From: Ramlibacter sp.
GTDB taxonomy: Bacteria > Pseudomonadota > Gammaproteobacteria > Burkholderiales > Burkholderiaceae_C
DNA: 64,000 nucleotides
Assembly (NCBI RefSeq): GCF_028291745.1
Contig: NZ_JAQGNQ010000046.1
Span: forward strand, 1 to 64,000
Direction: 5' to 3'
The position numbers and the translations under genes were made by a program. This document shows, piece after piece, positions 20,285 through 38,426 of the stretch. How positions within the stretch are numbered: position 1 is the stretch's first letter; every line of letters starts with the position of its first letter. A model generated the notes under the pieces. That model was not told where the DNA came from. It saw nothing but the letters and a program-made list of their open reading frames with translations, and ran no database searches.

Positions 20285-21703
20285 TCAGCCCCGCTTCTTC
20301 GGCAGCAGCGAGGGCGCGCCGCAGGGCAGGAAGCGGCCGGCCCCGGCCTTGCCGCTGAAGCGGCTGCCGTCCCACACGACCTCGCCGCGGGCCAGCGTCA
20401 TGCCGGGCCAGGCCGCCAGGCGCATGCCTTCGTACGGCGTGTAGTCGACCGCGTGGTGCAGCATGGCGTTGCGGATCACCGTCTCGCGCTCGTCCCAGAT
20501 CACCAGGTCGGCGTCGGCCCCGACCGCGATGGTGCCCTTGCGCGGATGCAGGCCGTAGGCCTTGGCCGGATTGGTGGCGGTGAGCTCGACGAACTTCTGC
20601 GGCGTGATGCGGCCGGCCAGCACGCCTTCCGACCAGAGCAGCGCCATGCGCGTTTCCAGCCCGGGGATGCCGTTGGGGATGTGCTGGAACGGCACTTCCT
20701 CGCCGCCCGGCTTCTTGCCGGCGGGGTCGTCGAAGTTGAAGGGCGCGTGGTCGGACGAGAACACGGTGAACAGGCCGTCGGCCAGGCCGTCCCAGATCAC
20801 TTCCTGGTTGGCGCGATCGCGCGGCGGCGGGCTGCACACGCAGCGGGCTCCGCCATAGCTGTCGTCTGTCCCCAGGTCTTCGGCGGTGAGGAACAGGTAC
20901 TGCGGGCAGGTCTCGGCGAACACCTTCAGGCCCAGCCCGCGGGCCCAGCGGATCTGTTCCACCGCCTCCTTGCCCGAGACGTGCACCACGAGGATGGGCA
21001 CATCGACCAGTTGCGACAGTGCGATCGCCCGGTGGGTCGCCTCGCGCTCCACCAGCATCGGCCGGGCGTGCGCGTGGTAGCGCGGCGCCGTGCGGCCGGA
21101 CGCTTCCAGCCGCTTGGTCAGCCACTCGATGCAGTCGGCATTCTCGGCGTGGACCATGGCCATGGCGCCGTGTTCGCGGGCGACGTCCAGCACGTCGAGG
21201 ATCTGCCCGTCATCGAGCTTCAGGTCGTCGTAGGTCATGTAGATCTTGAAGGACGTGTAGCCCTCGCGGATCAGCGCCGGCAGTTCCTCCTTCAGCACCT
21301 TGGGCGTGGGGTCGCTCACGATCAGGTGGAAGGCGTAGTCGACGTGCGCCTTGCCCTCGGCGCGCCGGTGGTAGTCCTCCACCGCGGCGCGCAATGACTG
21401 GCCCTTCATCTGGGCGGCGAACGGGATGACGGTGGTGGTGCCACCACAGGCGGCCGAGCGGGTGCCGGTGGCGAAGTCGTCGGCCATGCGGGCCGGCCCT
21501 TCCATGGGCTGGTCCAGGTGGCAGTGGGCATCGACGCCTCCCGGCGTCACGGCGCGGCCGGCGGCGTCGATCTCGCGCGCGCCGGGCGCAAGGTCGAGTC
21601 CGAGCTGCACGATGCGGCCGCCGCGCACGGCGATGTCGCACAGGAAGCTGTCGCTGGCGGTCGTGGCCTGCGCGTTGCGCACGACCAGGTCGAATTCAGG
21701 CAT
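20285..21703 (-). CDS. hydA: D-hydantoinase/dihydropyrimidinase
   Basis: 472 residues. Binuclear-metal amidohydrolase with all ligand motifs: DAHCHLD (HxH), carboxylated Lys in SFKIYMTYD, His in VHAEN, His in VHVSG and Asp in FSSDHAPF. It opens six-membered dihydropyrimidine or five-membered hydantoin rings to N-carbamoyl acids in the cytoplasm. Last intact gene of the long minus-strand cluster (30267 down to here), after the SDR and epimerase. A second copy of the same family lies at 60988-62475. Confidence 0.93.
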   Translation of the reverse strand: MPEFDLVVRNAQATTASDSFLCDIAVRGGRIVQLGLDLAPGAREIDAAGRAVTPGGVDAHCHLDQPMEGPARMADDFATGTRSAACGGTTTVIPFAAQMKGQSLRAAVEDYHRRAEGKAHVDYAFHLIVSDPTPKVLKEELPALIREGYTSFKIYMTYDDLKLDDGQILDVLDVAREHGAMAMVHAENADCIEWLTKRLEASGRTAPRYHAHARPMLVEREATHRAIALSQLVDVPILVVHVSGKEAVEQIRWARGLGLKVFAETCPQYLFLTAEDLGTDDSYGGARCVCSPPPRDRANQEVIWDGLADGLFTVFSSDHAPFNFDDPAGKKPGGEEVPFQHIPNGIPGLETRMALLWSEGVLAGRITPQKFVELTATNPAKAYGLHPRKGTIAVGADADLVIWDERETVIRNAMLHHAVDYTPYEGMRLAAWPGMTLARGEVVWDGSRFSGKAGAGRFLPCGAPSLLPKKRG

Positions 21704-21728
21704 GGAGTCTCGTTCGTGGGTCCGGTCT

Positions 21729-22538
21729 TCAGGCGGCCGTCCAGCCGCCGTCGACCATCAGTTGGGCGCCGGTGACGAAGCTGGCTTCGCTGCTGGCGAG
21801 AAAGAGGATGGCGTTAGCCACGTCCTGCGGCCGGCCCAGGCGCGGCCAGGGCGTGCGGCGCACGGCGCGCTCCATCACTGCGGGGTCGAGCGCGCGGCCG
21901 CCGGCGCCGGTCTGGATCTTTCCGGGGGCGACCGCGTTGCAGACGATCTGCTGCGGTGCGTAATCCACGGCGATCTGCCGGGTGAGATAAGCGATGGCCG
22001 CCTTGCTGGTGCCGTAGGCCAGGTCCTCGGGCGCGGCGATCATGCCGTGCTGGGAAGACAGGTTGACGATGCGCCCGCGCGCTTCGTCGACGGGCGCCTG
22101 CCGCACCATGTGGCGCACGGCGGCGCGGCAGCAGCGGAACACGCCGGTGAGATTGACGTCCAGCACCCGCTGCCAGTCGGCCTCTTCCATCTCCAGCAGG
22201 GGCCGCGCGTGGCGCACGCAGGCGTTGTTCACCAGCACGTCGATGCGCCCGAAGCGCGTGACGGCCTGGTCCATCAAGGCCTCGACCTGCGCCGTATCGG
22301 ACACGTCGGTGCGCTGGAAGATGGCGCTGCGGCCCTCCGCCGCGATCAGCTCCGCGGTCGGACGCCCGCCCTCGACGACCTCGGTGGTCACGTCGGCCAC
22401 CACCACGTGAGCGCCATGCGCGGCCAGCAGGCGCGCCGTGGCGCGGCCGATGCCGGAAGCGGCGCCGGTGACGATGCACACCTTGCCGACGAGGCGGCGG
22501 GCGCTCGGCTCGGGCAGGGCAGCCGTGGGTTCAGGCAT
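21729..22538 (-). CDS. SDR-family oxidoreductase
   Basis: 269 residues from ATG 22538, which overlaps the stop of the epimerase upstream. Glucose-dehydrogenase-type SDR: TGAASGIGRA, DVS and NNAC, catalytic Ser in NLSSQHG, Tyr/Lys in YGTSKAAIAYL, and VDGGWTAA at the end. Probably NAD-dependent oxidation of a hydroxy intermediate of the hydantoinase cluster. The open frame runs on upstream to 23150 but that part is antisense to the epimerase. Confidence 0.9.
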   Translation of the reverse strand: MPEPTAALPEPSARRLVGKVCIVTGAASGIGRATARLLAAHGAHVVVADVTTEVVEGGRPTAELIAAEGRSAIFQRTDVSDTAQVEALMDQAVTRFGRIDVLVNNACVRHARPLLEMEEADWQRVLDVNLTGVFRCCRAAVRHMVRQAPVDEARGRIVNLSSQHGMIAAPEDLAYGTSKAAIAYLTRQIAVDYAPQQIVCNAVAPGKIQTGAGGRALDPAVMERAVRRTPWPRLGRPQDVANAILFLASSEASFVTGAQLMVDGGWTAA

Positions 22539-23508
22539 GGTGCAGCCACTCCTCGAAATCGTTGGCGGCGGCCGCCAGGTCATAGCGCGGCACGAAGGCC
22601 GTGTCCTGTCGCAGCCGGGTGCAGTCCATGGGCGCGCGGTCGTAGGGTGCGTAGTAGTCCACGTTGGCGGGCTCGCCGGCGTCGGCGTTCGCGAGCTGCC
22701 AGCGAAAGCCTGGGCGGCGCGCGGCCAGCTGCTCGCACCACTGGGCGAGGGTCCAGCGGAAGCCGGTGGCGATGTTGTAGGTGGCGTGCGATCGGTGCGG
22801 CGCGTCCAGCAGGGCGGCCAGGCCAGCGGCGGCGTCGCGCACGTAGAGCCAGTCGCGCAGCCCGGCGCGGGGCAGCACGGCGGCATGTCCCGCGCGCGCC
22901 AGCCGCAGCACCTGCAGCGGCGCGCTGGGCGTGTCGCGCACGCCGGTGTCGGCCTCCCACGGGCCGAAGCAGGTGCCGAGCCGGCCCACCACCAGATCGA
23001 GGCCCGCGATGTCGGCAAAGCGCCGGGCTGCCGCTTCCGCGGCCTGCTTGGAGATGCCGTAGAGCCCTTCCGGGCGCAGCGGCGTGCTGTCCTCGCACAA
23101 GGGCGCGCTGCCGGCGCCGCTGGCACCGTAGGCCGAGCCGGAGCTGGCATGCAGCACCCGCTGCACGCCGCACTCCGCGGCGGCCGACAGCGCCGCCAGC
23201 ACGCCGCCCACGTTCACGTCGAAGATCGCCTGGGGCGCGGCGCGCTCGCGGCCGGCATCGGCGGTGATCGCGGCCAGCGTGACCAGGCGGTCCGGCGCAT
23301 GGCAACGCATCGCCTGCCGCAGCGCGGCGGCATCGAGCACGTCGCCGGTCTCGGCGTCGAATCGCCCGGGCAGCGCGGCGAAGGCCTTCAGGGCAGCGGC
23401 GGCGGGCGGCTGCAGGTCATAGCCCACGACGTGCTGGCCGCGGGCCAGCAGGTGTTCGGTCAGCGCCAGGCCGACGAAGCCGCTCGCGCCGGTGATGAAG
23501 GTCGGCAT
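22531..23508 (-). CDS. NAD-dependent epimerase/dehydratase (extended SDR)
   Basis: 325 residues: Rossmann motif ITGASGFVGLA, GD in DAETGDVLD, Ser in ASSGSAYG and YGISKQAAE with Tyr/Lys. Paralogue of 683-1720 (shared RLGTCFGPWExDTGVRD, GFRWTLAQWC). Both are beside importers and amide-type hydrolases, so these enzymes probably act on catabolic substrates, not on nucleotide sugars. Follows the ABC ATPase gene by nine bases. Confidence 0.88.
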   Translation of the reverse strand: MPTFITGASGFVGLALTEHLLARGQHVVGYDLQPPAAAALKAFAALPGRFDAETGDVLDAAALRQAMRCHAPDRLVTLAAITADAGRERAAPQAIFDVNVGGVLAALSAAAECGVQRVLHASSGSAYGASGAGSAPLCEDSTPLRPEGLYGISKQAAEAAARRFADIAGLDLVVGRLGTCFGPWEADTGVRDTPSAPLQVLRLARAGHAAVLPRAGLRDWLYVRDAAAGLAALLDAPHRSHATYNIATGFRWTLAQWCEQLAARRPGFRWQLANADAGEPANVDYYAPYDRAPMDCTRLRQDTAFVPRYDLAAAANDFEEWLHHA

Positions 23509-23517
23509 CCTTGCGTC

Positions 23518-24324
23518 CTAGGCGACTTTCAGCACGCGCTCGGACCGCTCCCCGGGCTCCGGGCGCGCCAGCGGCTCGGGCCGCAGCAGCGACAGGATGT
23601 GGCGCTTGTAGTCGTTGAAGCGCGGGCTGGTCGGATCGCGCGGGCGCTCCAGGTCGACCGGGATCAGCTCGCGGATGCGGCCCGGGCGCGCCGACATGAC
23701 CGCGATGTGCGTGCCGAGCGCCAGCGACTCGTCGATGGCATGCGTGACGAAGACGATCGTGGCCTGGCTCTCGCGCCAGATGCGCACCAGCTCCGTGTGC
23801 ATGTCCATGCGGGTCTGTTCGTCGAGCGCGCCGAAGGGTTCGTCCATCAGGATCACCTCCGGATTCATCAGCAGCGCGCGGGCGATGCCCACCCGCTGGT
23901 TCATGCCGCCGGACAGCTCGCTCGGGAAGTGATTCTCGAAGCCGCGCAGGCCGACCAGCTCGATGAAGCGCTGCGCCTGCTCGCGCCGTTGGGCCTTGCC
24001 GGCGCCGCGCATCGTCAGGTGGAAGGCCACGTTCTCCCACACGGTCAGCCAGGGCATCAGCGTCGGCTGCTGGAACACCACGCCGCGGTCGGAGCCGGGC
24101 GCCGTGATCCTCTGGCCGCCGACGGTGACGGTGCCGCTGGAGGGCTGGTCGAAGCCGGCGATCATGTTCAGCAGGGTGGACTTGCCGCAGCCGCTGGGCC
24201 CGAGCAGGCAGAGGAACTCGTTGCGCCGCACCTGCAGGCTGACCTCGTCGAGCGCTTTCACGGCGGTGCCGCGCTTCGGGTCGTCGAACAGGCGGGAGAC
24301 GCGGTCGATGGTGATGAGGGTCAT
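23518..24324 (-). CDS. ABC transporter ATP-binding protein (SsuB/TauB type)
   Basis: 268 residues. Walker A GPSGCGKST, Q-loop FQQPTLMPWLTV, signature LSGGMNQR, Walker B VILMDEPFGALD and the H-loop in FVTHAIDES. The sequence around the signature belongs to the nitrate/sulfonate/taurine importer ATPases. Works with the permease (24326) and binding protein (25168). One base separates its start from the permease stop. Confidence 0.93.
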   Translation of the reverse strand: MTLITIDRVSRLFDDPKRGTAVKALDEVSLQVRRNEFLCLLGPSGCGKSTLLNMIAGFDQPSSGTVTVGGQRITAPGSDRGVVFQQPTLMPWLTVWENVAFHLTMRGAGKAQRREQAQRFIELVGLRGFENHFPSELSGGMNQRVGIARALLMNPEVILMDEPFGALDEQTRMDMHTELVRIWRESQATIVFVTHAIDESLALGTHIAVMSARPGRIRELIPVDLERPRDPTSPRFNDYKRHILSLLRPEPLARPEPGERSERVLKVA

Positions 24325-24325
24325 C

Positions 24326-25150
24326 TCAGGCCTCCCTTGCCTGCAGCGTCGAGCCGTGCTGCCAGCGCAGCACGCGGGCGGCGACGCGCTTGATCGCGAA
24401 GTCGCTCAGGAAACCGAGCAGGCCGATGCTGGCCATGGCCGCGATCACGATGTCGTAGCGCAGGAAGTAGTAGGAGTCCCACAGCACGTAGCCGACGCCG
24501 CTCTTGACCGCCACCATTTCGGCGGTGACGGTGAGCATCCAGGCCGAGCCGATCGCGATGCGCAGCCCGGAGAAGATGCTGGGCAGGGCCGCCGGAAAAA
24601 CGATGTGGCGCAGCAGCTTGTGCGGCGTGCCGCCGGTCATCGCGCCGGCACGCAGCAGGTTGCGGTCGCAGGTCTTCACGCCATGGATGGTGCTCAGGAG
24701 CACCGGGAAGAAGGAGCCGAGGAACACCAGGAAGATCGCCGGCTTGTTGGCGATGCCGAACCAGATGATGGCCAGCGGAATCCACGACACCGGCGGCACC
24801 GGGCGCAGCACCTGCAGCACCGGCTCGATCAGCTTTTCGATGGTGCGCGACCAGCCGATGGCCATGCCGAGCGTCACGCCGAAGAAGGTCGCCAGCCCGA
24901 AGCCCGCGAACACGCGGCCCGCGCTTGCGGCCGTGTCGTAGAGCCAGTGCGCGGAATAGGTCTGGGTGTTGCCGTCGGTGCCGACCACCCAGTCGGCCCA
25001 GGCCCGCAGCACCTGCGAAGGCGCGGGCAGCAGGGCCGGCGGGAGGATGCCCGAGCGGGAGAAGATCTCCCACCCGATCAACAGCGCCACCGGCACGATG
25101 CTCCGTTCGAGGCGTCGATAGAGGTGGACCAGGATGGATGGGAACCGCAT
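24326..25150 (-). CDS. ABC transporter permease (SsuC/TauC type)
   Basis: 274 residues with about six membrane segments and the cytoplasmic EAA-type loop (RAGAMTGGTPHKLLRHIVFPAALPSI). N-terminal ILPPALLPAPSQVLRAW and PVSWIPLAIIWFGI are typical of nitrate/sulfonate/taurine importers. Inner membrane. Separated from the binding-protein gene by 17 bases. Confidence 0.93.
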   Translation of the reverse strand: MRFPSILVHLYRRLERSIVPVALLIGWEIFSRSGILPPALLPAPSQVLRAWADWVVGTDGNTQTYSAHWLYDTAASAGRVFAGFGLATFFGVTLGMAIGWSRTIEKLIEPVLQVLRPVPPVSWIPLAIIWFGIANKPAIFLVFLGSFFPVLLSTIHGVKTCDRNLLRAGAMTGGTPHKLLRHIVFPAALPSIFSGLRIAIGSAWMLTVTAEMVAVKSGVGYVLWDSYYFLRYDIVIAAMASIGLLGFLSDFAIKRVAARVLRWQHGSTLQAREA

Positions 25151-25167: not shown

Positions 25168-26169
25168 TCAGTAGCCGAGCGCCGACTTCGGCTTGCCCGT
25201 CACGGCCTCGAGAAAGCGGTAGTCCATGTTCTTCTCCACGGCCGCCGTGACGTCCGTGTTGATGTACTTCAGGTCGTGCATCATGCTGGCGATGGCCACG
25301 GCGGAAGCGCGGTGCATGGCGTAGTCCGGGTACAGGTTGGCGACGGCGCCGGTCGCGATCGCCTTGTCCAGTCCGGTGACCTTCTGGATGGTCTCGATGA
25401 ACAGCTCCTTGTTGCTGGCCATGAGCTCATTGACCTTGACGATGGAGCGCACGGTCTCCTCCACGGCCTTGGGCTTGGCGGCGATCACGTCCGAGCGCGT
25501 CACGATCAGGTTGGTCAGCTTGCCCGCGGCCTGGTCGTAGGGGAAGGCGAAGAACTTGGCGGCCTTCAGTTCGCGGATCTGGGTGGCGAAGGGGTCCACC
25601 GAGCAGATCAATTCCACCTCGCCGCGGCGCAGCGCCTGCACGTGGTCCGACGGGTTCGGGATGTTGATGAACTGCACGTCCTTGTTGATGTCGATGCCCT
25701 GCCTGGCGAAGGCGCCGCGCATGTGGATGTCCTGCGCGTTGCCGCGCGACGCCGCCACCCGGAACGGCTTGCCCTGCGCCTTGTACGAGGCGATCAGCTT
25801 CTTCAGGCCGGCCCAGTCGTTGGCCGCCAGCGGCAGGTCGTTGCCCACGAGGATCTGCGAGCCGCCATTGATCTGGCCGGAAATGGCGACCACGTCGAAG
25901 CCCTTGTCGAGGGCGGTGGCGTAGTGCAGGTAGGTGACCTGGGCGACGTCGATGCTCTTGGACAGCAGTGCGGTCAGCACGTCGTTGCCGGTGTTGAAGC
26001 CGATGGCCTCCAGCTTCACGCCGGTGGCGTTCTGCGGCGTCAGCGCCAGCGGTGTGCAGTGGGCGCACTTGGCGTAGCCGAGCTTGATGGCCGGCGCTTC
26101 GTCGGCCTGGCCGGCCAGCGGCAGCAGGGCCGCCGCGGCGAAAACGATTTTCGCGATGAGTTTGAGCAT
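25168..26169 (-). CDS. ABC transporter periplasmic binding protein (TauA/NMT1-like)
   Basis: 333 residues from ATG 26169, with AAGGA before it and a clean signal peptide (KIVFAAAALLPLAGQADEA). Motifs: IKLGYAKCAHCTPLAL, DVAQVTYLHYATALDKGFDVVAISGQ, PNPSDHVQALRRGEVELI and YKxQGKPF. Binding fold of nitrate/taurine/thiamine-precursor type. The two-Cys CAHC at the mature N-terminus is unusual. Starts the transporter-hydantoinase operon; an inverted repeat lies 70-105 bases upstream. Confidence 0.9.
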   Translation of the reverse strand: MLKLIAKIVFAAAALLPLAGQADEAPAIKLGYAKCAHCTPLALTPQNATGVKLEAIGFNTGNDVLTALLSKSIDVAQVTYLHYATALDKGFDVVAISGQINGGSQILVGNDLPLAANDWAGLKKLIASYKAQGKPFRVAASRGNAQDIHMRGAFARQGIDINKDVQFINIPNPSDHVQALRRGEVELICSVDPFATQIRELKAAKFFAFPYDQAAGKLTNLIVTRSDVIAAKPKAVEETVRSIVKVNELMASNKELFIETIQKVTGLDKAIATGAVANLYPDYAMHRASAVAIASMMHDLKYINTDVTAAVEKNMDYRFLEAVTGKPKSALGY

Positions 26170-26342: not shown

Positions 26343-27698
26343 TCACTCCCAGTAGCGGCGGCCCTCCGCGCCCCACAGTGCGCGCGCGGCGGTCTCCGCC
26401 TCGGCGCACACGGCTTGCATGTCGACGCGGGTGGGCAGCCCGTCCTCCACCAGCACCTCGCCTTCGACGAGCACCATGCGCACGTCGCGGCCTTGCCCGG
26501 TATGCACCAGGTTCCCCAGCGGGTTCACGTGCGGGCGCAGGTGCGGCCGGTTGGCGTCGACCACCACGAGGTCAGCCGCCTTGCCGGCCTGCAGGCTGCC
26601 GATTTCGTGATCGAGGCCGAGCGCGCGCGCACCGCCCATGGTGGCCATGTGGAAAACGTCGGCCGGTTGCCAGCCGGCGTTGACGCCGCCTTCCTGCACG
26701 CGGGCCGTCATGAGCGCCCAGCGCATCAGCTCGATCATGTCGCCGTGCTGCGTGTCGGTGGCCAGCGCGATGTTGACGCCGGCGCGCTTGAGCATCGGCG
26801 TGGGCGCCAGCCGGCCGGAGGTGGCATTGCACTTCGGGATGTGCACCGCGTGCGCGCCGGCCCGGGCCATGCGCGCGGCATCGGCTTCATCGAGGTAGAT
26901 GCAGTGGCCGCCCAGAAGCCGCTCGTTCAGCAGGCCGGTGTCGTCCAGCACCTCGGTGGAACTGCGGCCGGTGCGCGCGCGCACGCGCTGCACCTCCACC
27001 TGGCTCTGTCCGAGATGCGTGCTCACGCGCAGACCATGAGCCCGTGACGCCGCGGCCACTTCCTGCAGGAAGCCGTTGGAGCAGGTGTCGACCGCGTGCG
27101 CCGCGAGGTTGGGATGCACGCGCGCGTGCCCGGCCCAGCGCGCCTGCAGCGTGAGCGCGGCATCCAGCGTGCGGCGGCCGATCGCCGGGTCGTGGTGCCA
27201 GTCGCCCTGCGCCACGCGGGCGAAGTCGACGTCGTGGATGCGCCAACTGGGGGCCAGCCGCAGGCCCAGTTCGACCATCGCCTCGGTCGCGATGTCGGCG
27301 TGGACGAAGTTGTCGCCGACCAGGGTCGATCCGAACAGCAGTGCTTCCAGTGCTCCCAGCCGCGCCAGTGCGCGCGCCTGCTCGGGGTTGACCGCCGTTC
27401 CCTTCGGGATGCCCGGCGTATACGAAGGGGCGAAGCCCAGGTCGGCGGCCACGCCGCGCACCATGGTCAGGATGCTGTGGGTGTGGACGTTGACGAAGCC
27501 CGGCAGGATGAAGTGCCCCGGCAGCCGCAGCGTGCGCTGCGCTTCGTAGCGCGCGGGCGGCGCGCGGTCGATCCAGGCGATGCGGCCGCCGCGGATCCCG
27601 ATCGCGCAGTCGCGGATCTCGGGCCGGGCGGGGTCGGCCGTCAGCGCGATCGCATCCAGCAGCAGGAGGTCGAAGCGGTGCAGGGTGTCTGCGCTCAT
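26343..27698 (-). CDS. amidohydrolase (chlorohydrolase/deaminase type)
   Basis: 451 residues from ATG 27698. Metal-dependent hydrolase with N-terminal FILPGFVNVHTHSI (HxH), STHLGQ and GHCIYLD His ligands and LATDTQHGD (Asp). This branch includes cytosine, 8-oxoguanine and triazine deaminases or hydrolases. It lies five bases downstream of the GntR gene. The frame is open well upstream (to 28655) but that part is not real. It probably deaminates or dehalogenates a heterocycle. Confidence 0.88.
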   Translation of the reverse strand: MSADTLHRFDLLLLDAIALTADPARPEIRDCAIGIRGGRIAWIDRAPPARYEAQRTLRLPGHFILPGFVNVHTHSILTMVRGVAADLGFAPSYTPGIPKGTAVNPEQARALARLGALEALLFGSTLVGDNFVHADIATEAMVELGLRLAPSWRIHDVDFARVAQGDWHHDPAIGRRTLDAALTLQARWAGHARVHPNLAAHAVDTCSNGFLQEVAAASRAHGLRVSTHLGQSQVEVQRVRARTGRSSTEVLDDTGLLNERLLGGHCIYLDEADAARMARAGAHAVHIPKCNATSGRLAPTPMLKRAGVNIALATDTQHGDMIELMRWALMTARVQEGGVNAGWQPADVFHMATMGGARALGLDHEIGSLQAGKAADLVVVDANRPHLRPHVNPLGNLVHTGQGRDVRMVLVEGEVLVEDGLPTRVDMQAVCAEAETAARALWGAEGRRYWE

Positions 27699-27703: not shown

Positions 27704-28447
27704 CTATCCCAGCAGCGCGTCGGCGAGGTCGATCTCCACCTCTTCGCGCTGCAGCAGGTTGAGCGAACGCTCGATGTGATGCAGGTGCTCGGTCATCAAG
27801 GCCACGGCGGTCTTCTTCTGGCCGGCCTCGATCGCATCGACCAGGCGGGCATGCTCGTCGTCCGGACAGGCCGCGACGGTCGGTGCCTCGAAGGCCAGGA
27901 TCGCCAGGCAGGTGAGCGGCGTGAGCTCGCGCATCACGCGGGTCATGATGCTGCTGCCCGAGAGCTGGGCGAGCTGCACGTGGAACTCGCCGGACAGCCG
28001 CACCGAGGCGCGCCGGTCGCCTTGCGCGTGTGCCTGCTGTTCGCGCTTGACCAGTGCACGCAGCTGCTTGATTGCCCCCGGCGCCTTGCCGTCGGCGATG
28101 CGGTCGATCAGCCGCACGACGATGGCCGGCTCCAGCGTGCGCCGGGCATCGAGCACGTCCTGCGCTTCCTCCACGGTGGGCGTGGTGACGAACGCCCCAC
28201 GGTTCGGGATCAGCGTCACCAGCTGCTCCACGGCAAGCCGCTGCAGCACGCCGCGCACCTGGGTGCGGCTCACCGAAAAGAGCGCGGCCACGCGTTCTTC
28301 CGACAGCTTGGTGCCGGGCATGAGCCGGTGCTCCACCACCGCTTCGTAGATCCGCTCGTAGATGTCGGAGGGCCGGGAGATCTCGGACGGCTTGGAGACG
28401 GTGTTCAGGGCAGGCCGCAGGGCCCGCCGGGCAGGCGGCAGGTTCAT
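27704..28447 (-). CDS. GntR-family regulator, FCD subfamily
   Basis: 247 residues: winged helix around residues 25-95 (IYERIYEAVVEHRLMPGTKLSEERVAALFSVSRTQVR), FCD domain with LEPAIVVRLIDRI, SGEFHVQLAQLSGS, and DDEHARLVDAIEAGQ as ligand region. Probably a repressor of this cluster released by a pathway intermediate. Located inside the cluster between the racemase-like gene and the amidohydrolase gene (five-base gap). Confidence 0.9.
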   Translation of the reverse strand: MNLPPARRALRPALNTVSKPSEISRPSDIYERIYEAVVEHRLMPGTKLSEERVAALFSVSRTQVRGVLQRLAVEQLVTLIPNRGAFVTTPTVEEAQDVLDARRTLEPAIVVRLIDRIADGKAPGAIKQLRALVKREQQAHAQGDRRASVRLSGEFHVQLAQLSGSSIMTRVMRELTPLTCLAILAFEAPTVAACPDDEHARLVDAIEAGQKKTAVALMTEHLHHIERSLNLLQREEVEIDLADALLG

Positions 28448-30508: not shown

Positions 30509-31600
30509 ATGCAAGCCCACGTCCGCAGCGCCGGGGTCGACGTCCGCCTCGACCAGATCCATCACCGCTATGGCGCGGCCACTGCCGTCGAATCGGTATC
30601 GCTCGCGATCGCGGCCGGCGAGCTGGTGGCCCTGCTCGGTCCCAGCGGCTGCGGCAAGACCACGCTGCTGCGCATCGTTGCCGGCCTGGTGCCGCAGACC
30701 AGCGGCAGCGTCTGCATCGGCGGCGAGCCGGTCGATGCGCTCGCAACCAATCAACGCGGCGCCGGCATCGTGTTCCAGAACTACGCGCTGTTCCCGCACA
30801 TGACGGTGCAGGACAACGTCGCCTACGGCCTGCGGGCCCGCGGCGAGGCGGCCGCCGTCGCGCGGGCCACGGCGCGCGAGATGCTGGAGATGGTCCACAT
30901 GGCCGCGTTCGCAGGACGCTATCCGCGCGAGCTGTCCGGCGGGCAGCAGCAGCGGGTGGCACTGGCGCGCACGCTGGCCGTGCGGCCGCGCGTGTTGCTG
31001 CTGGACGAGCCGTTCGCCGCCCTGGACAAGAACCTGCGGCTGGACATGCAGATCGAGATCAAGCGCATCCAGCGCGAACTGGGCATCACCACCATCCTGG
31101 TCACGCACGACCAGGACGAAGCCATGTCGATGGCCGACCGCATCGCCGTGATGCGCGCCGGCCAGGTGGAGCAGTTCGACACGCCCGAGGCCATCTACGA
31201 CCGGCCGGCGAGCCTGTTCGTGGCCAGCTTCATCGGCACCGCCAACCTGCTGCCCGGGCGGCTCTCCGGCGGCGAGCCCGCGGGCTTCGCGGTAGCCTGC
31301 CAGGGCGGTGGGGTGCTGCAACTGCGGCAGGCCTGGCCCTGCTCGCGTGCCGGCAGCGTGCTGGTGGCCGCGCGGCCCGAGCACCTGGCCATCGCGCCGC
31401 TTTCGCCGCAGGCCGTGCCGGCCACCATCGACATGGTGCTGCCGCTGGGGCCATCGCTGGTGTACGAGCTGACGCTGCCGGGCGGCCGCACCGTCAAGGT
31501 GACGCAGCCGCGCACCTCCGAGCACCCCCGCTTTGCCGCCGGCGACCGGGTCGGCCTGAGCCTGCGCGCCGGCTCGCCGGCCGGTGTGTTCACCGCCTGA
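30509..31600 (+). CDS. ABC transporter ATP-binding protein (PotA-like)
   Basis: 363 residues from ATG 30509. Walker A GPSGCGKTT, Q-loop FQNYALFPHMTV, signature LSGGQQQR, Walker B VLLLDEPFAALD, H-loop LVTHDQDEA, then a C-terminal TOBE domain (IGTANLLPG, VAARPEHLAIAP, DRVGLSLRA). Polyamine/iron-type importer ATPase. Energises the two permeases that follow directly; the binding protein is divergently encoded at 29212. The start codon has a weak ribosome site. Confidence 0.92.
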   Translation: MQAHVRSAGVDVRLDQIHHRYGAATAVESVSLAIAAGELVALLGPSGCGKTTLLRIVAGLVPQTSGSVCIGGEPVDALATNQRGAGIVFQNYALFPHMTVQDNVAYGLRARGEAAAVARATAREMLEMVHMAAFAGRYPRELSGGQQQRVALARTLAVRPRVLLLDEPFAALDKNLRLDMQIEIKRIQRELGITTILVTHDQDEAMSMADRIAVMRAGQVEQFDTPEAIYDRPASLFVASFIGTANLLPGRLSGGEPAGFAVACQGGGVLQLRQAWPCSRAGSVLVAARPEHLAIAPLSPQAVPATIDMVLPLGPSLVYELTLPGGRTVKVTQPRTSEHPRFAAGDRVGLSLRAGSPAGVFTA

Positions 31601-31608: not shown

Positions 31609-32469
31609 ATGCCCCGCTCCTTCCGCTCGCCGCCCGCCGGGTCCTCGTTGTCGCTGGCCTTGCCGCTCGCGCTGTTCTTCGCGGTGTTCGTCATTGCGCC
31701 ACTGGTGCTGCTGGCCTACGTCAGCCTGCATGTTGACGGCACGCTGGCGCAGGCCGGCTTCGCCCAGTACGCGAAGTTCCTGGGCGACCGCTTCAACCTC
31801 GGCGTGCTGGGCGCCACCCTCGGCCTGGGCCTGCAGGTGGTGGCGCTCAGCGCGGTGATCGGCTTCCCGCTCGCCTGGCTCTACACGCAGGCGCCGCGTC
31901 GCTGGCAGGGACCGCTGCTGCTGCTGATCATCCTGCCCCTGCTCACCAGCTCGGTGGTGCGTACCTTCGCCTGGGTCGTGATCCTGGGACGGCAGGGCAT
32001 CGTCAACAGCGCGCTGCTGGATCTGGGCGTGATCGCCGAGCCGCTCAAGCTGCTGTACACGCACGGCGCCGTGGCCGTGGCGCTGGCCCAGATCGAGCTG
32101 CCGCTGATGGTGCTGCCGCTGGTCACCGCCCTGATGAACATCGATCCCAATCTGCGTCCGGCTTCGCTGGCGCTTGGCGCGGGGCACTGGCGCACCTTCT
32201 GGCAGATCACGGTGCCCCTGTCCATGCCGGGCCTGCTCACCGGCTGCGTGCTGGTGTTCGCCTCCAGCGTCAGCGCCTTCGTCACCCAGACGCTGGTCGG
32301 TGGCGGCCAGCACATGTACATGCCCTTCTACATGTACCAGCAGGCGATCGAAGCCAACAACTATCCCTTCGCCGCGGCGGTCGCGATGCTCCTGCTTGGG
32401 TGCGTGCTGGCGGTGGTGATGGCGGTCAACGCGCTCGGGCGCAGGAGCAAGGGGTTCGTCCATGCCTGA
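31609..32469 (+). CDS. ABC transporter permease (PotB-like)
   Basis: 286 residues, six predicted membrane helices, with the EAA loop region SLALGAGHWRTFWQITVPLSMPGL and C-terminal QAIEANNYPFAAAVAM typical of spermidine/putrescine-type permeases. Starts eight bases after the ATPase stop and overlaps the next permease by eight bases. Inner membrane subunit. Confidence 0.93.
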   Translation: MPRSFRSPPAGSSLSLALPLALFFAVFVIAPLVLLAYVSLHVDGTLAQAGFAQYAKFLGDRFNLGVLGATLGLGLQVVALSAVIGFPLAWLYTQAPRRWQGPLLLLIILPLLTSSVVRTFAWVVILGRQGIVNSALLDLGVIAEPLKLLYTHGAVAVALAQIELPLMVLPLVTALMNIDPNLRPASLALGAGHWRTFWQITVPLSMPGLLTGCVLVFASSVSAFVTQTLVGGGQHMYMPFYMYQQAIEANNYPFAAAVAMLLLGCVLAVVMAVNALGRRSKGFVHA

Positions 32470-33340
32470 TCAAGCTGTGTCCCCGGGTTTGCTGCCCGCC
32501 GCGCCCGCGGCGGCGCCGCGCGCCAGGCACGCGTTCGCCGCAGGCCTGGAGCACGCGTCCTTCCGCGCCGTGTTCGGCCTGCTGGGATTGGTCGCGGCCC
32601 TGCTGCTGCTGGCACCGACGGTCGTGGTGCTGGTCACCTCGCTCACCAGCGGCTACTCGCTCAAGTTCCCGCCACCGGGCTACTCCACGCGCTGGTACCA
32701 GGCCTTGTGGACCGAGTCGCCGGAGCTGGTCGACGCGCTGCTGCTGTCGCTGAAGCTGGCCGCGATCGCCACCAGCGCCTCCGTGGTGATGGGCGTGGCG
32801 GCGGCACTGGCGCTGGCCCGGCGCCCTGAGCCCTGGGCCCGCGCTGTGGAGGCCGTGTTCCTGTCGCCGCTGATGCTGCCGACGCTCGCCATCGGCCTGT
32901 CGCTGCTGATGCTGTTCAACCTGGCCGGCACCGCGCTCTCGTTCTGGACCCTGGTGCTCGGGCACGTCACGCTGGTCACCCCCTACGTGCTGCGCACCAC
33001 GGCGGCGAGCCTGGTGCAGATGGACGCCAGCCTGCTCGAGAGCGCCAGCGCCCTCGGCGCCTCGCCGGTGTACGCCTTCCGCACGGTCACCCTGCCGCTG
33101 GTGTCCCGCGGCATCGCGGCGGGGGCCTTCATCGGCTTCATGAACTCCTTCGACAACGTCGCCGTCTCGCTCTTCCTGTCGGACGCGCGCAGCCAGGTGC
33201 TGCCGATCCGGATGTGGCACATCATTGAATCCAATCTCGATGTGCGCGCCGCCGCCGTCTCCGGTGTGCTGATCGCCGCCACCCTGGTGCTGATGGTGGT
33301 GATGGAGCGCGTGGCAGGCGTTTCGCGGCACTTCCGTTGA
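32462..33340 (+). CDS. ABC transporter permease (PotC-like)
   Basis: 292 residues. Six helices, EAA loop SALGASPVYAFRTVTLPLVSRGI, N-terminal LLAPTVVVLVTSLTSGYSLKFPPPG. Partner of the preceding permease. Overlap of eight bases shows tight coupling. Convergent with the deaminase gene whose stop is only 20 bases away. Confidence 0.93.
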   Translation: MPDQAVSPGLLPAAPAAAPRARHAFAAGLEHASFRAVFGLLGLVAALLLLAPTVVVLVTSLTSGYSLKFPPPGYSTRWYQALWTESPELVDALLLSLKLAAIATSASVVMGVAAALALARRPEPWARAVEAVFLSPLMLPTLAIGLSLLMLFNLAGTALSFWTLVLGHVTLVTPYVLRTTAASLVQMDASLLESASALGASPVYAFRTVTLPLVSRGIAAGAFIGFMNSFDNVAVSLFLSDARSQVLPIRMWHIIESNLDVRAAAVSGVLIAATLVLMVVMERVAGVSRHFR

Positions 33341-33360: not shown

Positions 33361-33837
33361 TCAGGCGGGCGCGACGCGGTCGCCGCCCCAGCGCAGGCGC
33401 AGCGCCAGGTACTCCTCCTCGCGCACGCCTTCGCGCAGTTCCAGCGCGAACCCGGTCATGCCGCAGAAGGCCTCGATCGAGTAGCGGCCCAGGTCGGTGC
33501 GGCGCAGGCGCGCATGGCGCAGCGCCAGCACCAGCGTGGCTACACCGGCCAGCTTCAGCGCGCCCGCGCACATGGGACAGGGCTCCATCGTGCAATAGAG
33601 CGTCGCCCCCTGTGCCGCGTGCGGCCCGTGCTGCGCGAAAGCAGCGCGCAGCACGTCGGTCTCGGCATGGGAGGTGACATCGCCCTGGCTGCATTGCCGG
33701 TTCTGGCCGCTGGCCAGCAGCCGGCCCTCGCGCACCAGCACCGCGCCGGTCGGCCAGTCGCCGCGGGCATGCGCCTCGCGTGCCGCCTGCAGGGCCAGGT
33801 CCATCCAGTGCAGGTCTTCGTCGTGCTGCGGGTTCAT
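33361..33837 (-). CDS. cytidine/guanine-deaminase-like nucleoside deaminase
   Basis: 158 residues. CDA-fold zinc deaminase: HAE (TSHAETDVL) with catalytic Glu and PCPMC (EPCPMCAGAL) with the two zinc cysteines. N-terminal DLHWMDLALQAAREAHARGDWPTGAVLV. Could act on guanine, cytosine, a pyrimidine analogue or a tRNA-like base, but the catabolic setting favours a free base. Divergent from the amidohydrolase gene with only 35 bases between the starts. Confidence 0.9.
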   Translation of the reverse strand: MNPQHDEDLHWMDLALQAAREAHARGDWPTGAVLVREGRLLASGQNRQCSQGDVTSHAETDVLRAAFAQHGPHAAQGATLYCTMEPCPMCAGALKLAGVATLVLALRHARLRRTDLGRYSIEAFCGMTGFALELREGVREEEYLALRLRWGGDRVAPA

Positions 33838-33872: not shown

Positions 33873-35384
33873 TTGAGCAAGAAACGCACCCTGTTGCGCA
33901 ATGCCACCGCACTGGTCGGCGATGCGCTGGATTACGACGCCCAGCCGCTGGACGTGCTGATCGAGGGCGATCGCATCGCGGCCATCGCGCCGGCCGGCTC
34001 GCTGGGCGATGCGGAGTGCGTGGTCGACCTCGCGCGCCGCCTGCTGGTGCCGGGTCTGGTCAACGGCCACCAGCATTCGCACGAGCACTTCCAGCGTGGC
34101 CGCACCGAGAACCTGCCGCTGGAACTCTGGATGCACCTGGTGCGCACGCGGATCCCGGTGGCTCTGACCCCGCGACAGGTGTACCTGCGCACGATGATCG
34201 GCGCCATCGAGTCGCTGCGCACCGGCTGCACCACGCTGGTCGACGACATGGCGCTCGGTGCGGCGATCCAGCGCGAGAACATCAAGGCAGTGCTGGCCGC
34301 CTACGACGACGCCGGCATCCGCGCGCTGCTGGGCTTCGCCATGATGGACAAGCCCATCGTCGACAACTTCCCCTTCGTCGCCGAGCACTTCCCGCCGGAG
34401 CTGGCGGCCGAACTGCGTTCTGCCGCGCGGCCGGCACCGCAGGACTGCCTGGCGCTGGTGCGCGACCTGGCGCGCGAGCGCCATCCGCAGCAAAACCGGG
34501 TCGGGGTGCTGGTCTCGGCCTCGGCGCCGCAGCGTTGCACCGAGCCCTTCCTGCAGCAGGTGCGGGCGCTGGCCGACGATCTCGCGCTGCCGGTCATCAC
34601 GCACGTGCAGGAGACCCGGCTGCAGGTCGTCACGGGGCAGCAGTTCTACGGCTCCCCCATCGTTGAATACCTGGACCGCATCGGCTTCCTGAAGCCGGCG
34701 ACCAGCCTCATTCACGCGGTCTGGCTGAACCCGCGGGAGATCGAGGCGCTGGCGCGCACTGGCGCCACCGCGCAGCACAACCCGTGGAGCAACCTGCTGC
34801 TCGGCTCCGGCGTGCAGCCGGTGCGCGAGCTGCTGGAGGCCGGGGTCAACGTCAGCCTGGGTTCGGACGGCTCCTGTTCCACCGTGACCGTCAACATGCT
34901 GAACGTCCTGGGGAGCGCGGCGGCGCTGTCCAAGTTGCGCGGCGACGTGCCGCAGCGCTGGCTGTCGGCGCGCGAGGCGCTGCAGGCCGGCACCCTGGCC
35001 GGCGGGCGGGCGCTCGGCTTCGGCGATGCGCTGGGTTCGCTGCGAGTGGGCGCGCTCGCGGACCTGGTGGCGTATCGCACCGACACGGTCACGTTCACGC
35101 CGATGAACGACCCGGTGCGCCAGCTGGTGTACGCCGAACGCGGCGCCGGCCTGGACTTCTCCATGGTGGCCGGCGAGATTGTCATCGAGGGCGGGCGGCT
35201 GCTGCGCATCGACGAGGCCGCGATCCTGGCCGAGATCGAAGCGGACTTCCGCGAACTGTCCGGGCGCTATGCGCAGGCGGAGGCTTCGGTGGCCCCGGTG
35301 CTGGCCGCCGTCGAGGGCATCTACCGCCGCTCGCTGGCACTGCCCATCCCGCCGGATACCTTCGCCGCGCGGATGCCGGCATGA
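33873..35384 (+). CDS. amidohydrolase/deaminase of the TrzA/chlorohydrolase family
   Basis: 503 residues starting at a TTG (33873) with AAGGAAA before it. Metal motifs: LVNGHQHSHEH, THVQETRLQ (His), HAVWLNPREI (His) and SLGSDGSCS (Asp), in the ATZ/TRZ deaminase/hydrolase framework. Substrates of the family are guanine, cytosine, melamine-like triazines and related heterocycles. First gene of the plus-strand four-gene run whose members overlap at ATGA. The TTG start may lower its expression. Confidence 0.88.
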   Translation: MSKKRTLLRNATALVGDALDYDAQPLDVLIEGDRIAAIAPAGSLGDAECVVDLARRLLVPGLVNGHQHSHEHFQRGRTENLPLELWMHLVRTRIPVALTPRQVYLRTMIGAIESLRTGCTTLVDDMALGAAIQRENIKAVLAAYDDAGIRALLGFAMMDKPIVDNFPFVAEHFPPELAAELRSAARPAPQDCLALVRDLARERHPQQNRVGVLVSASAPQRCTEPFLQQVRALADDLALPVITHVQETRLQVVTGQQFYGSPIVEYLDRIGFLKPATSLIHAVWLNPREIEALARTGATAQHNPWSNLLLGSGVQPVRELLEAGVNVSLGSDGSCSTVTVNMLNVLGSAAALSKLRGDVPQRWLSAREALQAGTLAGGRALGFGDALGSLRVGALADLVAYRTDTVTFTPMNDPVRQLVYAERGAGLDFSMVAGEIVIEGGRLLRIDEAAILAEIEADFRELSGRYAQAEASVAPVLAAVEGIYRRSLALPIPPDTFAARMPA

Positions 35385-36286
35385 GCGGCGCCCGCGATTT
35401 CCACGGCTACGGCTGGCGTTATCCGGCGCTGCGCTGGCCCGGCGGCGCCGGACTGGCGGTGTCCTTCGTGCTGAACGTGGAAGAGGGCGCCGAGCTCAGT
35501 CTCAGCGCCGGCGACGAGCGCAACGAAGGCCGCCACGAGGTGAACCACGAGGTGCTGGGCGCGCCCGACCTGTGCATGGAAAGCCACTTCGAATACGGCG
35601 CGCGGGTGGGCTACTGGCGCATCACGCGGGCGCTGCTGGAAGCAGGGGTGCCGCTGACGCTCAACGCCTGCGGCCGGGCGCTGGAGACGACGCCCTGGAT
35701 CGCCCGTGACGCCACGGCCAATGGTTTCGAGATCTGCTGCCACGGCTGGCGCTGGGAGTCGCACGCCGGCCTGCCCGAAGCCGAGGAGCGCGCGCGCATC
35801 GCCCGCTGCGTCGCAACGATCAGGCAACTATGGGGCCGGCCGCCGGTAGGCTGGCACACCAAGTCCTCCGCTTCGGTGAACACCCGGCGCCTGCTGGTGG
35901 AGCAGGGCGGCTTCTTGTACGACAGCGATGCCTACAACGACGACCTGCCCTACTACGTGCCGGTCGCCGGCCGGCCGCACCTGGTGCTGCCCTACGCCTT
36001 CGACACCAACGACATGCGCTTCTTCGACAGCTTCGCCTTTGCCCGGGCCGACGATTTCGCCGGCTATGCGATCGACGCCTTCGAGGCGCTGCTGCGCGAA
36101 TCGCACACTGCGCCGCGCATGCTGTCGATCGGGCTGCACACCCGCATCATCGGCCGGCCGGGGCGCATCGCCGGACTGGAACGGCTGCTGGCCCACATCC
36201 GCGGGCGTGCCGGTATCTGGTGCGCCACGCGCGAGCAGATCGCCCGCCACTGGCTGGCCCACGTGCCCCCGGAAGGCGCGCAATGA
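35381..36286 (+). CDS. polysaccharide-deacetylase-fold amidohydrolase (PuuE allantoinase-like)
   Basis: 301 residues. NodB-like fold in the PuuE branch: HGYGWRYPALRWPGGAGLAVSFVLNVEEGAE, RNEGRHEV, NACGRALE, FEICCHGWRWE and GWHTKSSASVNTR, RMLSIGLHTRIIGRP. Allantoinases of this type open the hydantoin ring of allantoin without metal. In this cluster it could open a hydantoin or related cyclic ureide. Overlaps both neighbours by ATGA. Confidence 0.85.
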   Translation: MSGARDFHGYGWRYPALRWPGGAGLAVSFVLNVEEGAELSLSAGDERNEGRHEVNHEVLGAPDLCMESHFEYGARVGYWRITRALLEAGVPLTLNACGRALETTPWIARDATANGFEICCHGWRWESHAGLPEAEERARIARCVATIRQLWGRPPVGWHTKSSASVNTRRLLVEQGGFLYDSDAYNDDLPYYVPVAGRPHLVLPYAFDTNDMRFFDSFAFARADDFAGYAIDAFEALLRESHTAPRMLSIGLHTRIIGRPGRIAGLERLLAHIRGRAGIWCATREQIARHWLAHVPPEGAQ

Positions 36287-37029
36287 AGCTGTTGCTGGTC
36301 AACCCCAACCGCACGCAAGCGGTGACCGACGCGGTGCTCGCGGCGGCGCGCAGCAGCGCCTCGCCGGGCACCGAGCTGCTGGCGGTCACGGGCAGTTTCG
36401 GGCCGCTGGTGATCGGCTCACGCGGCGAGAACGCGCTGGCGCAGCACGGCGTGCTGGAACTGGTCGCGCAGCACGCGGCCGGCTGCGATGCCGTGGTGCT
36501 TGGGGTTTCGCTGGACACCGCCCTGTGGGCCTGCCGCGAGCTGCTGGACGTGCCGATCGTGGGCATGACCGAAGCCGGCCTGCTGGTGGGCGCCACGCTC
36601 GCCACCCGCATCGGCGTGCTGACCTACGGCCAGCGCATGGGGCCCTTGTACCGCGAGCTGGTGGAGAGCCACGGCCTCACCGGTCGACTCGCCGGCATCG
36701 AGGCGCTGGAGGTCACGCCGCAGCAGACCTTCGAGGCGCCGCAGGCGGTGCAGGCCGCGGTGCTCGCTGGCGCCCAGCGGCTGGTCACGCGCGACGGCGC
36801 CGAAGCCGTGCTGCTGGCCGGCGCCGCCATGGCTTCCATGGCCGGCGTGCTGCAGGCGCAGATCGGCGTGCCGCTGCTCGATGGGGTCGCCTGCGCGGTG
36901 GCGCTGGCCGAGGCGAGGGTGCGGCTGCGGCTGCCCAAGGCGCGCAGCGGCAGCCTGGCGGCCACCGGCGGGCGCGACGTGCAAGGGGTGTCGCCGGCGC
37001 TCGCCGCCCTGTTCGGACGCTCGCCATGA
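36283..37029 (+). CDS. hydantoin/Asp-Glu racemase homologue lacking catalytic cysteines
   Basis: 248 residues: MKLLLVNPNRTQAV, GCDAVVLGVSLDTALWACREL, GMTEAGLLVGATLA and AEAVLLAGAAMASM. Allantoin and hydantoin racemases of the HpxA/HyuE branch have Cys in VxxACFGD and LGCAGM; here the positions are Val75 and Gly180. The fold is therefore kept without either acid-base Cys. Coupled by ATGA overlaps to the allantoinase-like and amidase genes, so it is probably still expressed; a racemase role is doubtful. Confidence 0.8.
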   Translation: MKLLLVNPNRTQAVTDAVLAAARSSASPGTELLAVTGSFGPLVIGSRGENALAQHGVLELVAQHAAGCDAVVLGVSLDTALWACRELLDVPIVGMTEAGLLVGATLATRIGVLTYGQRMGPLYRELVESHGLTGRLAGIEALEVTPQQTFEAPQAVQAAVLAGAQRLVTRDGAEAVLLAGAAMASMAGVLQAQIGVPLLDGVACAVALAEARVRLRLPKARSGSLAATGGRDVQGVSPALAALFGRSP

Positions 37030-38426
37030 GTGACGCGCTGCATCTGATGACAGCGCGCGCGCTGGCCGCGCGTGTCGGTGCGGGCAGCCTGCGCGCGGCC
37101 GACGTCGCCCGCTTCTTCATCGAGCGCGTGCAGCGTCTCAATCCTGACCTGAACGCGATCGTGCAGTTCGATCCGGCGCTGGTGCTGGCGGAAGCGGCCG
37201 CAGTTGACCAGAGGCTGGCGAACGGCGAGCAACTGCCGCTGGCCGGCGTGCCCTTCACGGTGAAGGACAACCTGTGGGTGGCAGGCCGCCGCATCACCCA
37301 GGGCTCGCTGCTGTTCGAGGATTTCGTCGCTCCGCGCGACGCGTGGGCAGTGGCCCGGCTGCGCGAGCGCGGCGCCGTGATGCTGGGCATCACCAACTGT
37401 TCCGAGTTCGCCTGCAAGGGCGTGAGCGTCAACCGGGTGTACGGCGCGACCCGCCATCCGCTGGATCCAGCGCTGACGCCGGGTGGGTCCTCCGGCGGCG
37501 CGGCCGCGGCGCTCGCTGCGGGCCTGGGCCTGCTGGCGCTGGGCACCGACGCCGGCGGCTCCACGCGGCGGCCGGCGGCGCATTGCGGGCTGGTCGGATT
37601 GAAGCCGAGCGCCGGCCTGATCCCGCACCCCTGGGGCTTCGCGGAGCCGAACTACGGCCTGTCCGTGATCGGGCTGCTGGCGCGCAACGTGGGCGATGCC
37701 GCCTGGCTCTACGACCAGCTGCTGGCGTACGACGCAGGCGATCCCGCCGGCGTGCCGGTGCTGGTGGGGCTGCAGGCCTCGGATGCGCTGGCGACGGACC
37801 CGCCGCGCGAGCTGCGCGTTGCGTGGAGCCCGCGGCTGGGCTGCGATTTCGCGATCGACGACGACGTGCTGCAGGCCCTGCAACTTCGGGTCGACGCCTT
37901 GCGCTCGGCGGGCTGGCGGATCGTCGATGCCGATCCGAGCTGGCCGGCGGAGGTGCGCGAGTACCCCTTGCTCGCACTGCAGCAGGCCGGCCTGCACGCG
38001 CTCTATGGCCACCGGCTGCGCGACGCGCGCGAGCGCTTCGACCCCGACCTGGTGCTGCAGATCGAAGCCGGCGCAGCCTGCGGCCCGGAGGTGATCGCCC
38101 GCGTGCTGCGGCTGCGCGAGCGCATCGCCGCGTCGCTGGCGCGCTTCTTCGAGGAGCATGACCTCCTGTTGTGTCCGAGCGCGCCCGTCACGGCCTGGCC
38201 GCTGCAGCAACTCGGGCCGCCGGTGATCGGCGGCCGGGCCGCCGGACCTCGCGGCCACGCGGCTTTCACGCCGCTGTTCAACTATTGCGGTGTGCCGGCC
38301 TGCTCGGTTCCCGCCGGCGAGGTGCGCGGTCTGCCGGTGGGACTGCAGGTCGCCGCACCACGCTATGAGGATGCGCGGGTGCTGCAATACGCGGCCCTGG
38401 TGGAAGGTGTCGCAACTTCGCGCTGA
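37026..38426 (+). CDS. amidase of the amidase-signature family
   Basis: 466 residues. Amidase signature triad: Lys80 in TVKDN, cis-Ser155 in GGSSGG and nucleophile Ser179 in GTDAGGSTRRPAA. N-terminal LTARALAARV and ARLRERGAVMLGITN. Hydrolyses a linear amide or carbamoyl-type product; last gene of the run that starts with the TTG-initiated amidohydrolase. A role in releasing ammonia after ring opening is likely. Confidence 0.9.
   Translation: MSDALHLMTARALAARVGAGSLRAADVARFFIERVQRLNPDLNAIVQFDPALVLAEAAAVDQRLANGEQLPLAGVPFTVKDNLWVAGRRITQGSLLFEDFVAPRDAWAVARLRERGAVMLGITNCSEFACKGVSVNRVYGATRHPLDPALTPGGSSGGAAAALAAGLGLLALGTDAGGSTRRPAAHCGLVGLKPSAGLIPHPWGFAEPNYGLSVIGLLARNVGDAAWLYDQLLAYDAGDPAGVPVLVGLQASDALATDPPRELRVAWSPRLGCDFAIDDDVLQALQLRVDALRSAGWRIVDADPSWPAEVREYPLLALQQAGLHALYGHRLRDARERFDPDLVLQIEAGAACGPEVIARVLRLRERIAASLARFFEEHDLLLCPSAPVTAWPLQQLGPPVIGGRAAGPRGHAAFTPLFNYCGVPACSVPAGEVRGLPVGLQVAAPRYEDARVLQYAALVEGVATSR

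Follow-up and report, generated by a model that had tools for sequence, protein, structure and literature searches.

We analysed a 64,000-nt stretch of a 5.49 Mb Ramlibacter sp. draft genome (contig NZ_JAQGNQ010000046.1, positions 1 to 64,000; hereafter the window), in which positions 20285-38426 hold a cluster of 18 open genes. The cluster probably imports a nitrogen-containing ring compound, opens the ring and then removes a carboxyl group, and its most conserved pair consists of a hydantoinase-type enzyme (Hyd) and a single-cysteine AMDase-like enzyme (AMD).

Gene content of the cluster

NCBIfam models were scanned against all 18 cluster proteins and Pfam models against 10 of them, with the best 25 families listed per protein. 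Together with the open reading frames, these scans upheld the enzyme, importer, oxidoreductase and regulator families that an earlier note on this DNA had named here, and the enzyme set is consistent with the breakdown of a ring compound of the cyclic amide, ureide or N-heterocycle kind, as that note had supposed. The genes are as follows:

20285..21703, minus strand: Hyd, dihydropyrimidinase / D-hydantoinase type cyclic amidohydrolase (TIGR02033 and NF009941, both above cut-off)
21729..22538, minus strand: SDR-family oxidoreductase (NCBIfam SDR models; subfamily model NF005559 passed; start uncertain, 22493 or 22538)
22531..23508, minus strand: Epi, NAD-dependent epimerase/dehydrogenase family (PF01370, 144.6 bits)
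23518..24324, minus strand: TauB/SsuB-type ABC ATPase (NCBIfam)
24326..25150, minus strand: TauC/SsuC-type ABC permease (NCBIfam)
25168..26169, minus strand: TauA/NMT1-type substrate-binding protein (PF13379)
26343..27698, minus strand: AH1, ATZ/TRZ-type amidohydrolase (PF01979, 154.9 bits)
27704..28447, minus strand: GntR-family regulator (NCBIfam)
28475..29200, minus strand: AMD, single-cysteine AMDase/EutA-like protein of the Asp/Glu racemase superfamily, proposed malonate-type decarboxylase (PF17645, 69.6 bits)
29212..30267, minus strand: PotD/PhnS-type substrate-binding protein (NCBIfam)
30510..31600, plus strand: PotA-type ABC ATPase (NCBIfam)
31609..32469, plus strand: PotB-type permease (NCBIfam)
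32462..33340, plus strand: PotC-type permease (NCBIfam)
33361..33837, minus strand: CDA-fold (TadA/GuaD-like) deaminase, CDA (PF00383; HAE and PCPMC motifs in the translation)
33873..35384, plus strand: AH2, ATZ/TRZ-type amidohydrolase (PF01979; TTG start)
35381..36286, plus strand: PuuE-like NodB-fold cyclic amide/imide hydrolase (TIGR03212, below cut-off)
36283..37029, plus strand: Rac, Asp/Glu/hydantoin racemase homologue without either catalytic cysteine (PF01177)
37026..38426, plus strand: Ami, amidase-signature family hydrolase, proposed half-amidase (PF01425, 310.8 bits)

Of the 18 proteins, Hyd alone passed an equivalog cut-off in the listed families, scoring 536.7 bits against TIGR02033 (cut-off 393.25) and 785.4 bits against NF009941 (cut-off 647). 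The scores of AH1, AH2, CDA, the PuuE-like protein, AMD and Ami lay under every cut-off listed for each, and their substrates therefore cannot be read from the models. The ATGA overlaps that had been reported among the last four plus-strand genes are three in number, at 35381, 36283 and 37026 as read from the sequence, joining AH2, PuuE, Rac and Ami. Three gene starts were amended by our own choice, to ~30267 for PotD, ~30510 for PotA and ~33837 for CDA. A scan for GntR-type palindromes returned six matches in the cluster region, all intragenic, and none in the gap between PotD and PotA.

Co-conservation and nested versions

Conservation was examined in 200 genomes of the same family, the window's genome (G000) included, with presence called at E ≤ 1e-130 for AH2, 1e-70 for Rac, 1e-60 for AMD and 1e-150 for Hyd. 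AH2 was found in seven of the 200 genomes (G000, G011, G068, G069, G172, G175 and G177) and Rac in the identical seven, which belong to six genera, the window's own among them, and in which Rac always lay on AH2's contig, ~6 kb apart at most. Because the two genes occupy the same seven genomes, their association is more than chance, and because the genes are co-conserved in several genera, the lack of co-conservation that the earlier note had named as counting against it is not what was found. AMD occurred at 20 places in 19 of the 200 genomes and Hyd at 35 places in 28, and 16 of the 20 AMD places had Hyd no more than 10 kb away (our count from the two search tables). The two other genomes of the same genus in the sample (G097 and G198) gave no AMD, AH2 or Rac at these thresholds, and the cluster is therefore accessory. 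In G068, G069 and G175 the window gene order was kept at 59-89% identity, but the CDA match was absent from G068; in these three genomes Hyd was adjoined by an additional racemase homologue (Rac2; 37-39% identity to Rac), which is absent beside Hyd in the window's genome. We conclude that the cluster is a real, accessory set of about 18 genes, common to soil bacteria related to Variovorax.

To this family sample we added loci from GTDB genomes, which were scanned with the AMD alignment. The scan returned 378 relatives, and the 80 best were analysed; the resulting sample is AMD-anchored and non-random, and some of its loci come from genomes of the family sample (G068, G069, G175 and G177). All 80 loci belong to Betaproteobacteria by title, nearly all to Burkholderiales. 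Hyd was present in 72 of them and lay at most 300 bp from AMD in 62, and the other genes, counted at identity thresholds, were found less often: Rac2 in 38 loci, AH2 in 18, PotD in 17, CDA in 15, PuuE and Ami in 13 each, Rac in 11, AH1 in 10, TauA in 9, and Epi and SDR in 8 each. The versions nest, with Hyd-AMD as the smallest common unit, to which four layers are added: AH2-Rac-Ami, PotDABC-CDA, PuuE, and TauABC-AH1-Epi-SDR.

Among the small versions is a Caballeronia locus (L076) made up of GntR, an MFS transporter, AMD, Hyd and a pair of beta-lactamase-fold hydrolases, protein clusters that recur in other Burkholderia-type loci; a Paraburkholderia record carries GntR, MFS, AMD, Hyd, Rac2 and DUF3830. 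Rubrivivax L059 and Methylibium L060 have Ami-Rac-AH2 divergent from AMD-Hyd-DUF3830 and a less similar Tau-type importer (39-48%) further out; in these compact loci AH2-Rac-Ami is joined directly to AMD-Hyd, and PotDABC, CDA, PuuE, Epi and SDR are missing. The Variovorax and Pseudorhodoferax loci hold the cluster in full or nearly so. TauA and PotD orthologues stand together in eight of the 80 loci (L054-L058, L061, L062 and L090), mostly in the same order, and in these eight the SDR is conserved beside Epi and Hyd.

Several features border on these versions. The tandem beta-lactamase-fold hydrolases of L076 (PF00144; 12137-14523) lie immediately downstream of AMD-Hyd, and their protein cluster recurs in 36 gene-called loci and is absent from the window cluster. 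A DUF3830-type gene lies near Hyd or Rac2 in L059, L060, L113, L117 and L133, as recognized by PF12903 in L059, by the record name in L133 and by protein clustering in the other three; a search of open-licence PMC papers found no mention of DUF3830. A plasmid of the enteric bacterium Klebsiella michiganensis, typed as mobilizable (L137), carries an importer-oxidoreductase-AMD-Hyd module together with FAH-family and 3-hydroxyisobutyrate-dehydrogenase-like genes. A scan of viral contigs found no AMD relatives. In the window itself, positions 12433-16000 hold, by eye, a flavin monooxygenase, an SDR and an apparent acetamidase/formamidase (FmdA type) in consecutive order.

Conserved residues of AMD, Hyd, Rac and the PuuE-like protein

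An alignment of 93 AMD rows (91 distinct sequences) showed G77, T78, Y128 and C188 invariant in 93/93 and S79 in 91/93. By alignment, these positions match the G74/T75/S76/Y126/C188 set of AMDase given in Table 4 of PMC4996985. AMD thus shares with AMDase (EC 4.1.1.76, Bordetella bronchiseptica type) the fold, the glycine in place of the first cysteine together with the single Cys188, and the Thr, Ser and Tyr of the dioxyanion hole, an arrangement of the AMDase type and not of the two-cysteine racemase or maleate isomerase type. Maleate isomerase requires two active-site cysteines, consistent with a listed C194S succinylcysteine entry, and a maleate cis-trans isomerase identity for AMD was rejected on the glycine at the first active-site cysteine position in all 93 rows. 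The gene neighbours given in the 2016 AMDase survey, namely MR/MLE, TTT, TRAP and ABC families, differ from the hydantoinase neighbour of AMD described here, and in the main text of that survey 'hydantoin' occurs solely in 'hydantoin racemase' (PMC4996985).

The AMD-linked clade of Hyd was aligned in 80 rows (77 distinct), one of which (L043) comes from a contig without AMD in a genome that carries AMD on another contig. H60, H62, K153 and D318, which we take to be the binuclear metal ligands and the carbamylated lysine position, were invariant in 80/80 rows. Position 72 in gate loop 1 was Arg or Lys in 78/80 rows and in 0/23 control hydantoinases: members of a second hydantoinase clade had Met or Val there (9/9), and more distant relatives (14/14) had A, V, Y, T, H, I or E. 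Such hydantoinase loops gate the substrate, and Arg/Lys72 would suit an anionic ring substituent without proving one. A second hydantoinase, 53% identical to Hyd, lies at positions 60988-62475 of the window. Judged by eye, it shares the stretch 56923-62475 with a nitrilase-like gene (56923-57915), an ABC importer of the polar amino-acid type and a LysR gene, and the stretch is apparently a distinct hydantoin or dihydropyrimidine locus of a more classical kind.

In the Klebsiella allantoin racemase KpAllR, Cys79 and Cys184 are the catalytic cysteines of a two-thiol proton transfer (PMC12661438). Aligned to this enzyme, Rac has V75 and G180 at both positions in 12/12 orthologue rows (11 distinct), bearing out the earlier description of it as cysteine-less, and Rac2 has Ala and Gly in 40/40 rows. 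With both cysteine positions replaced, the two-thiol racemase mechanism is ruled out for Rac and Rac2. The AlphaFold model of Rac was poor (predicted local distance difference test score, pLDDT, 65.8) and was set aside.

The PuuE-like protein scored 315.4 bits against TIGR03212 (cut-off 424.6) and keeps the family's invariant framework, for example E35, H121, D181 and H253. It was compared with 14 close relatives and with 23 rows of <50% identity, which we took as canonical-type, although three of them (L012-L014) are divergent. At 18 positions the two sets differ, each position being at least 90% conserved within either set, and in the tree the window row and the 23 rows were split by a 100/100 branch (23 versus 21 rows). 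Given this separate clade and a canonical-type PuuE elsewhere in the same genome (contig C74), the PuuE-like protein of the cluster appears not to be the housekeeping allantoinase. On C74 (L145, G000:C74:8001-28000), the canonical-type gene stands beside OHCU-decarboxylase-, HIUase- and XdhC-like genes, a neighbourhood that is purine/ureide-like by eye.

Two further placements of PuuE relatives were observed. At G109:C134:1806-4165, a divergent PuuE-like protein (46%) directly precedes a Hyd (86% identity), making this a further pairing of a PuuE-type gene with a hydantoinase gene. Members of a clade sister to the window PuuE (56-58%) lie beside TctC/Bug-type binding proteins and GntR in G177:C1, G069:C154, G175:C12 and G053:C52 (L047, L049, L050 and L051).

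A proposed pathway and its alternatives

Taking the observed gene anatomy and nested co-conservation as a basis, we tentatively propose a Burkholderiales accessory catabolic island for a cyclic amide or ureide N-heterocycle, the steps of which we infer as follows. The two ABC importers would take up one substrate or several related ones; AH1, AH2 and CDA would act hydrolytically on exocyclic amino groups or on a first ring, and the SDR and Epi would oxidize a side group, so that importers and trimming enzymes together would turn more complex substrates into the ring of Hyd. Hyd would then open an amide ring bearing a carboxylate on the neighbouring carbon, yielding a malonate-type geminal diacid, from which AMD would take one carboxyl group by single-cysteine, cofactor-free AMDase-type chemistry. 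The frequent adjacency of Hyd and AMD would be explained in this way, because hydrolysis of an alpha-carboxylated cyclic amide gives a malonate, the substrate class of AMDase. Finally, the PuuE-like protein and Ami may form a cyclic-imide hydrolase/half-amidase pair that releases ammonia, resembling fungal nicotinate use, in which the PuuE-related NodB-fold cyclic imidase HxnM is followed by the amide hydrolase HxnN; that system is fungal, acts on a piperidinedione and, as described in PMC9304392, includes neither a hydantoinase step nor an AMDase-like one. Hydantoin-5-carboxylate, 5-carboxylated pyrimidines or dihydropyrimidines, barbiturate-type rings, the thiamine pyrimidine, divicine/isouramil, pterins and deazapurines were considered as substrates, as candidates only.

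The order given in the earlier note, import, deamination, ring opening and amide release, was itself inferred. As to its deamination step, an ATZ/TRZ amidohydrolase need not deaminate and may open a ring as SsnA does (PMC12507026). Its logic left Hyd-AMD without a place, a pair suggesting that a malonate-type decarboxylation follows ring opening. A bolder form of the proposal, which we consider rather doubtful, is that Hyd-AMD constitutes an undescribed, widespread two-step module, from ring opening through a malonate to decarboxylation, with the cysteine-less Rac and Rac2 carrying out a reaction new to their superfamily.

Several observations weigh against the proposed island. Hyd was not within 10 kb at four of the 20 AMD places in the family sample (G177, G104, which is a fragmented assembly, G176 and the second G162 place), and six Pseudacidovorax AMD loci (L064, L066-L068, L071 and L074) had no Hyd in the surrounding DNA examined, the other two Hyd-less loci being a 3.8 kb contig (L073) and a 17.6 kb stretch (L121). 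Two Variovorax loci (L055 and L056) keep the rest of the run with Rac undetected. Lys162 of Hyd, present in 80/80 rows, was dropped as a mark of specificity because the second hydantoinase clade also has K or R there in 9/9 (Met in 11/14 more distant relatives). As for AMD, G189 of AMDase is replaced by Thr within an invariant C188-T189-N190 (93/93 rows) and P15 by Ser in an N-terminal PSSNT that was matched by eye, as the alignment starts later; both long AMDase motifs are absent, the score against NF052327 was 64.7 bits (cut-off 225), and the predicted structure appears as close to maleate isomerase as to AMDase. Since Table 4 of PMC4996985 includes P14-P15, G189 and the motifs LMGTSLSF and ILLSCGGL among its AMDase criteria, we rejected the identity of AMD with the prototype AMDase.

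The Tau and Pot halves also occur apart, possibly for different substrates, so co-conservation supports the gene set of the earlier note but not necessarily a single linear pathway. In locus L053 the Tau half is accompanied by AMD, GntR and Ami, and the Pot half is lacking. In L064, L066-L068 and L074 (Pseudacidovorax) it is the Pot half that accompanies AMD and GntR, and the DNA examined shows neither Hyd nor the Tau genes nor AH1. On a Klebsiella plasmid record, an ABC importer, two oxidoreductases, AMD and a dihydropyrimidinase stand in a row, the rest of the cluster being absent. These loci would suit two independent back-to-back units, Hyd-SDR-Epi-TauBCA-AH1 and PotDABC-CDA-AH2-PuuE-Rac-Ami, that share only the regulator and AMD. 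We consider this division unlikely, given the eight loci in which TauA and PotD stand together in mostly the same order, the compact loci that join AH2-Rac-Ami straight to AMD-Hyd, and the presence of AMD in all versions, though the loci were AMD-selected.

A pathway for cyclic imides of the maleimide or succinimide type, in which a PuuE-like imidase, an amidase and a maleate-isomerase-like AMD would lead to fumarate, is improbable in view of the glycine at the first active-site cysteine position of AMD and of PuuE being present in only 13 of the 80 AMD loci.

A hyu operon consists of a racemase, a hydantoinase and a carbamoylase, and the cluster resembles one for 5-substituted hydantoins in that a hydantoinase and hydantoin-racemase-family proteins share it. 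The cluster differs in its AMDase-like partner and in the loss of both catalytic cysteines from Rac and Rac2, no HyuC-type or nitrilase-type carbamoylase was found among the families listed for the 18 proteins, and the second hydantoinase, with its nitrilase-like gene, lies apart at 56.9-62.5 kb. A hyu operon was rejected on the lost cysteines and on the lack of a carbamoylase among those families, and we give this reading very little probability.

Little credence is likewise due to a purine/ureide salvage variant, in which guanine-type deaminases, an allantoin racemase and an allantoinase would feed allantoin use. PuuE, racemase and deaminase are indeed allantoin-pathway families, the cluster sharing the PuuE fold and the racemase family with the PuuE/HpxA pathway, but its PuuE falls below the TIGR03212 cut-off in a clade of its own, its racemase homologue lacks both cysteines, and uricase, HIUase, OHCU decarboxylase and allantoate hydrolase are absent among the families listed for the cluster; similar genes occur elsewhere in the genome, on C74 with the canonical-type PuuE. 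The canonical allantoin pathway was rejected on the PuuE clade, the lost cysteines and this separate purine-like locus. The reductive uric acid pathway of E. coli and C. difficile, in which SsnA and HyuA open two rings successively (PMC12507026), also combines an ATZ/TRZ-type amidohydrolase with a hydantoinase, and was rejected with XdhD, YgfK/UacX, YgeW/UacY, YgeY and YgeX type families not found among those listed for the 18 proteins.

Returning to the proposed island built on Hyd-AMD, a literature search of open-licence PMC papers (titles and abstract beginnings) found no work on this gene combination among the matches listed; PMC4016543 was rejected as a description of the cluster, as it concerns ureidoglycine carbamoyltransferase. 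We rate the cluster as a variant of cyclic-amide catabolic clusters in a combination not found described. The invariant loss of both cysteines marks Rac and Rac2 as candidates for a new activity, and the annotations 'dihydropyrimidinase', 'racemase' and 'allantoinase' in such clusters would need revising. The conserved association between an AMDase-like enzyme and a hydantoinase offers a concrete, testable role for AMDase chemistry and, if the proposal is true, the Hyd-AMD module would give this chemistry a natural role.

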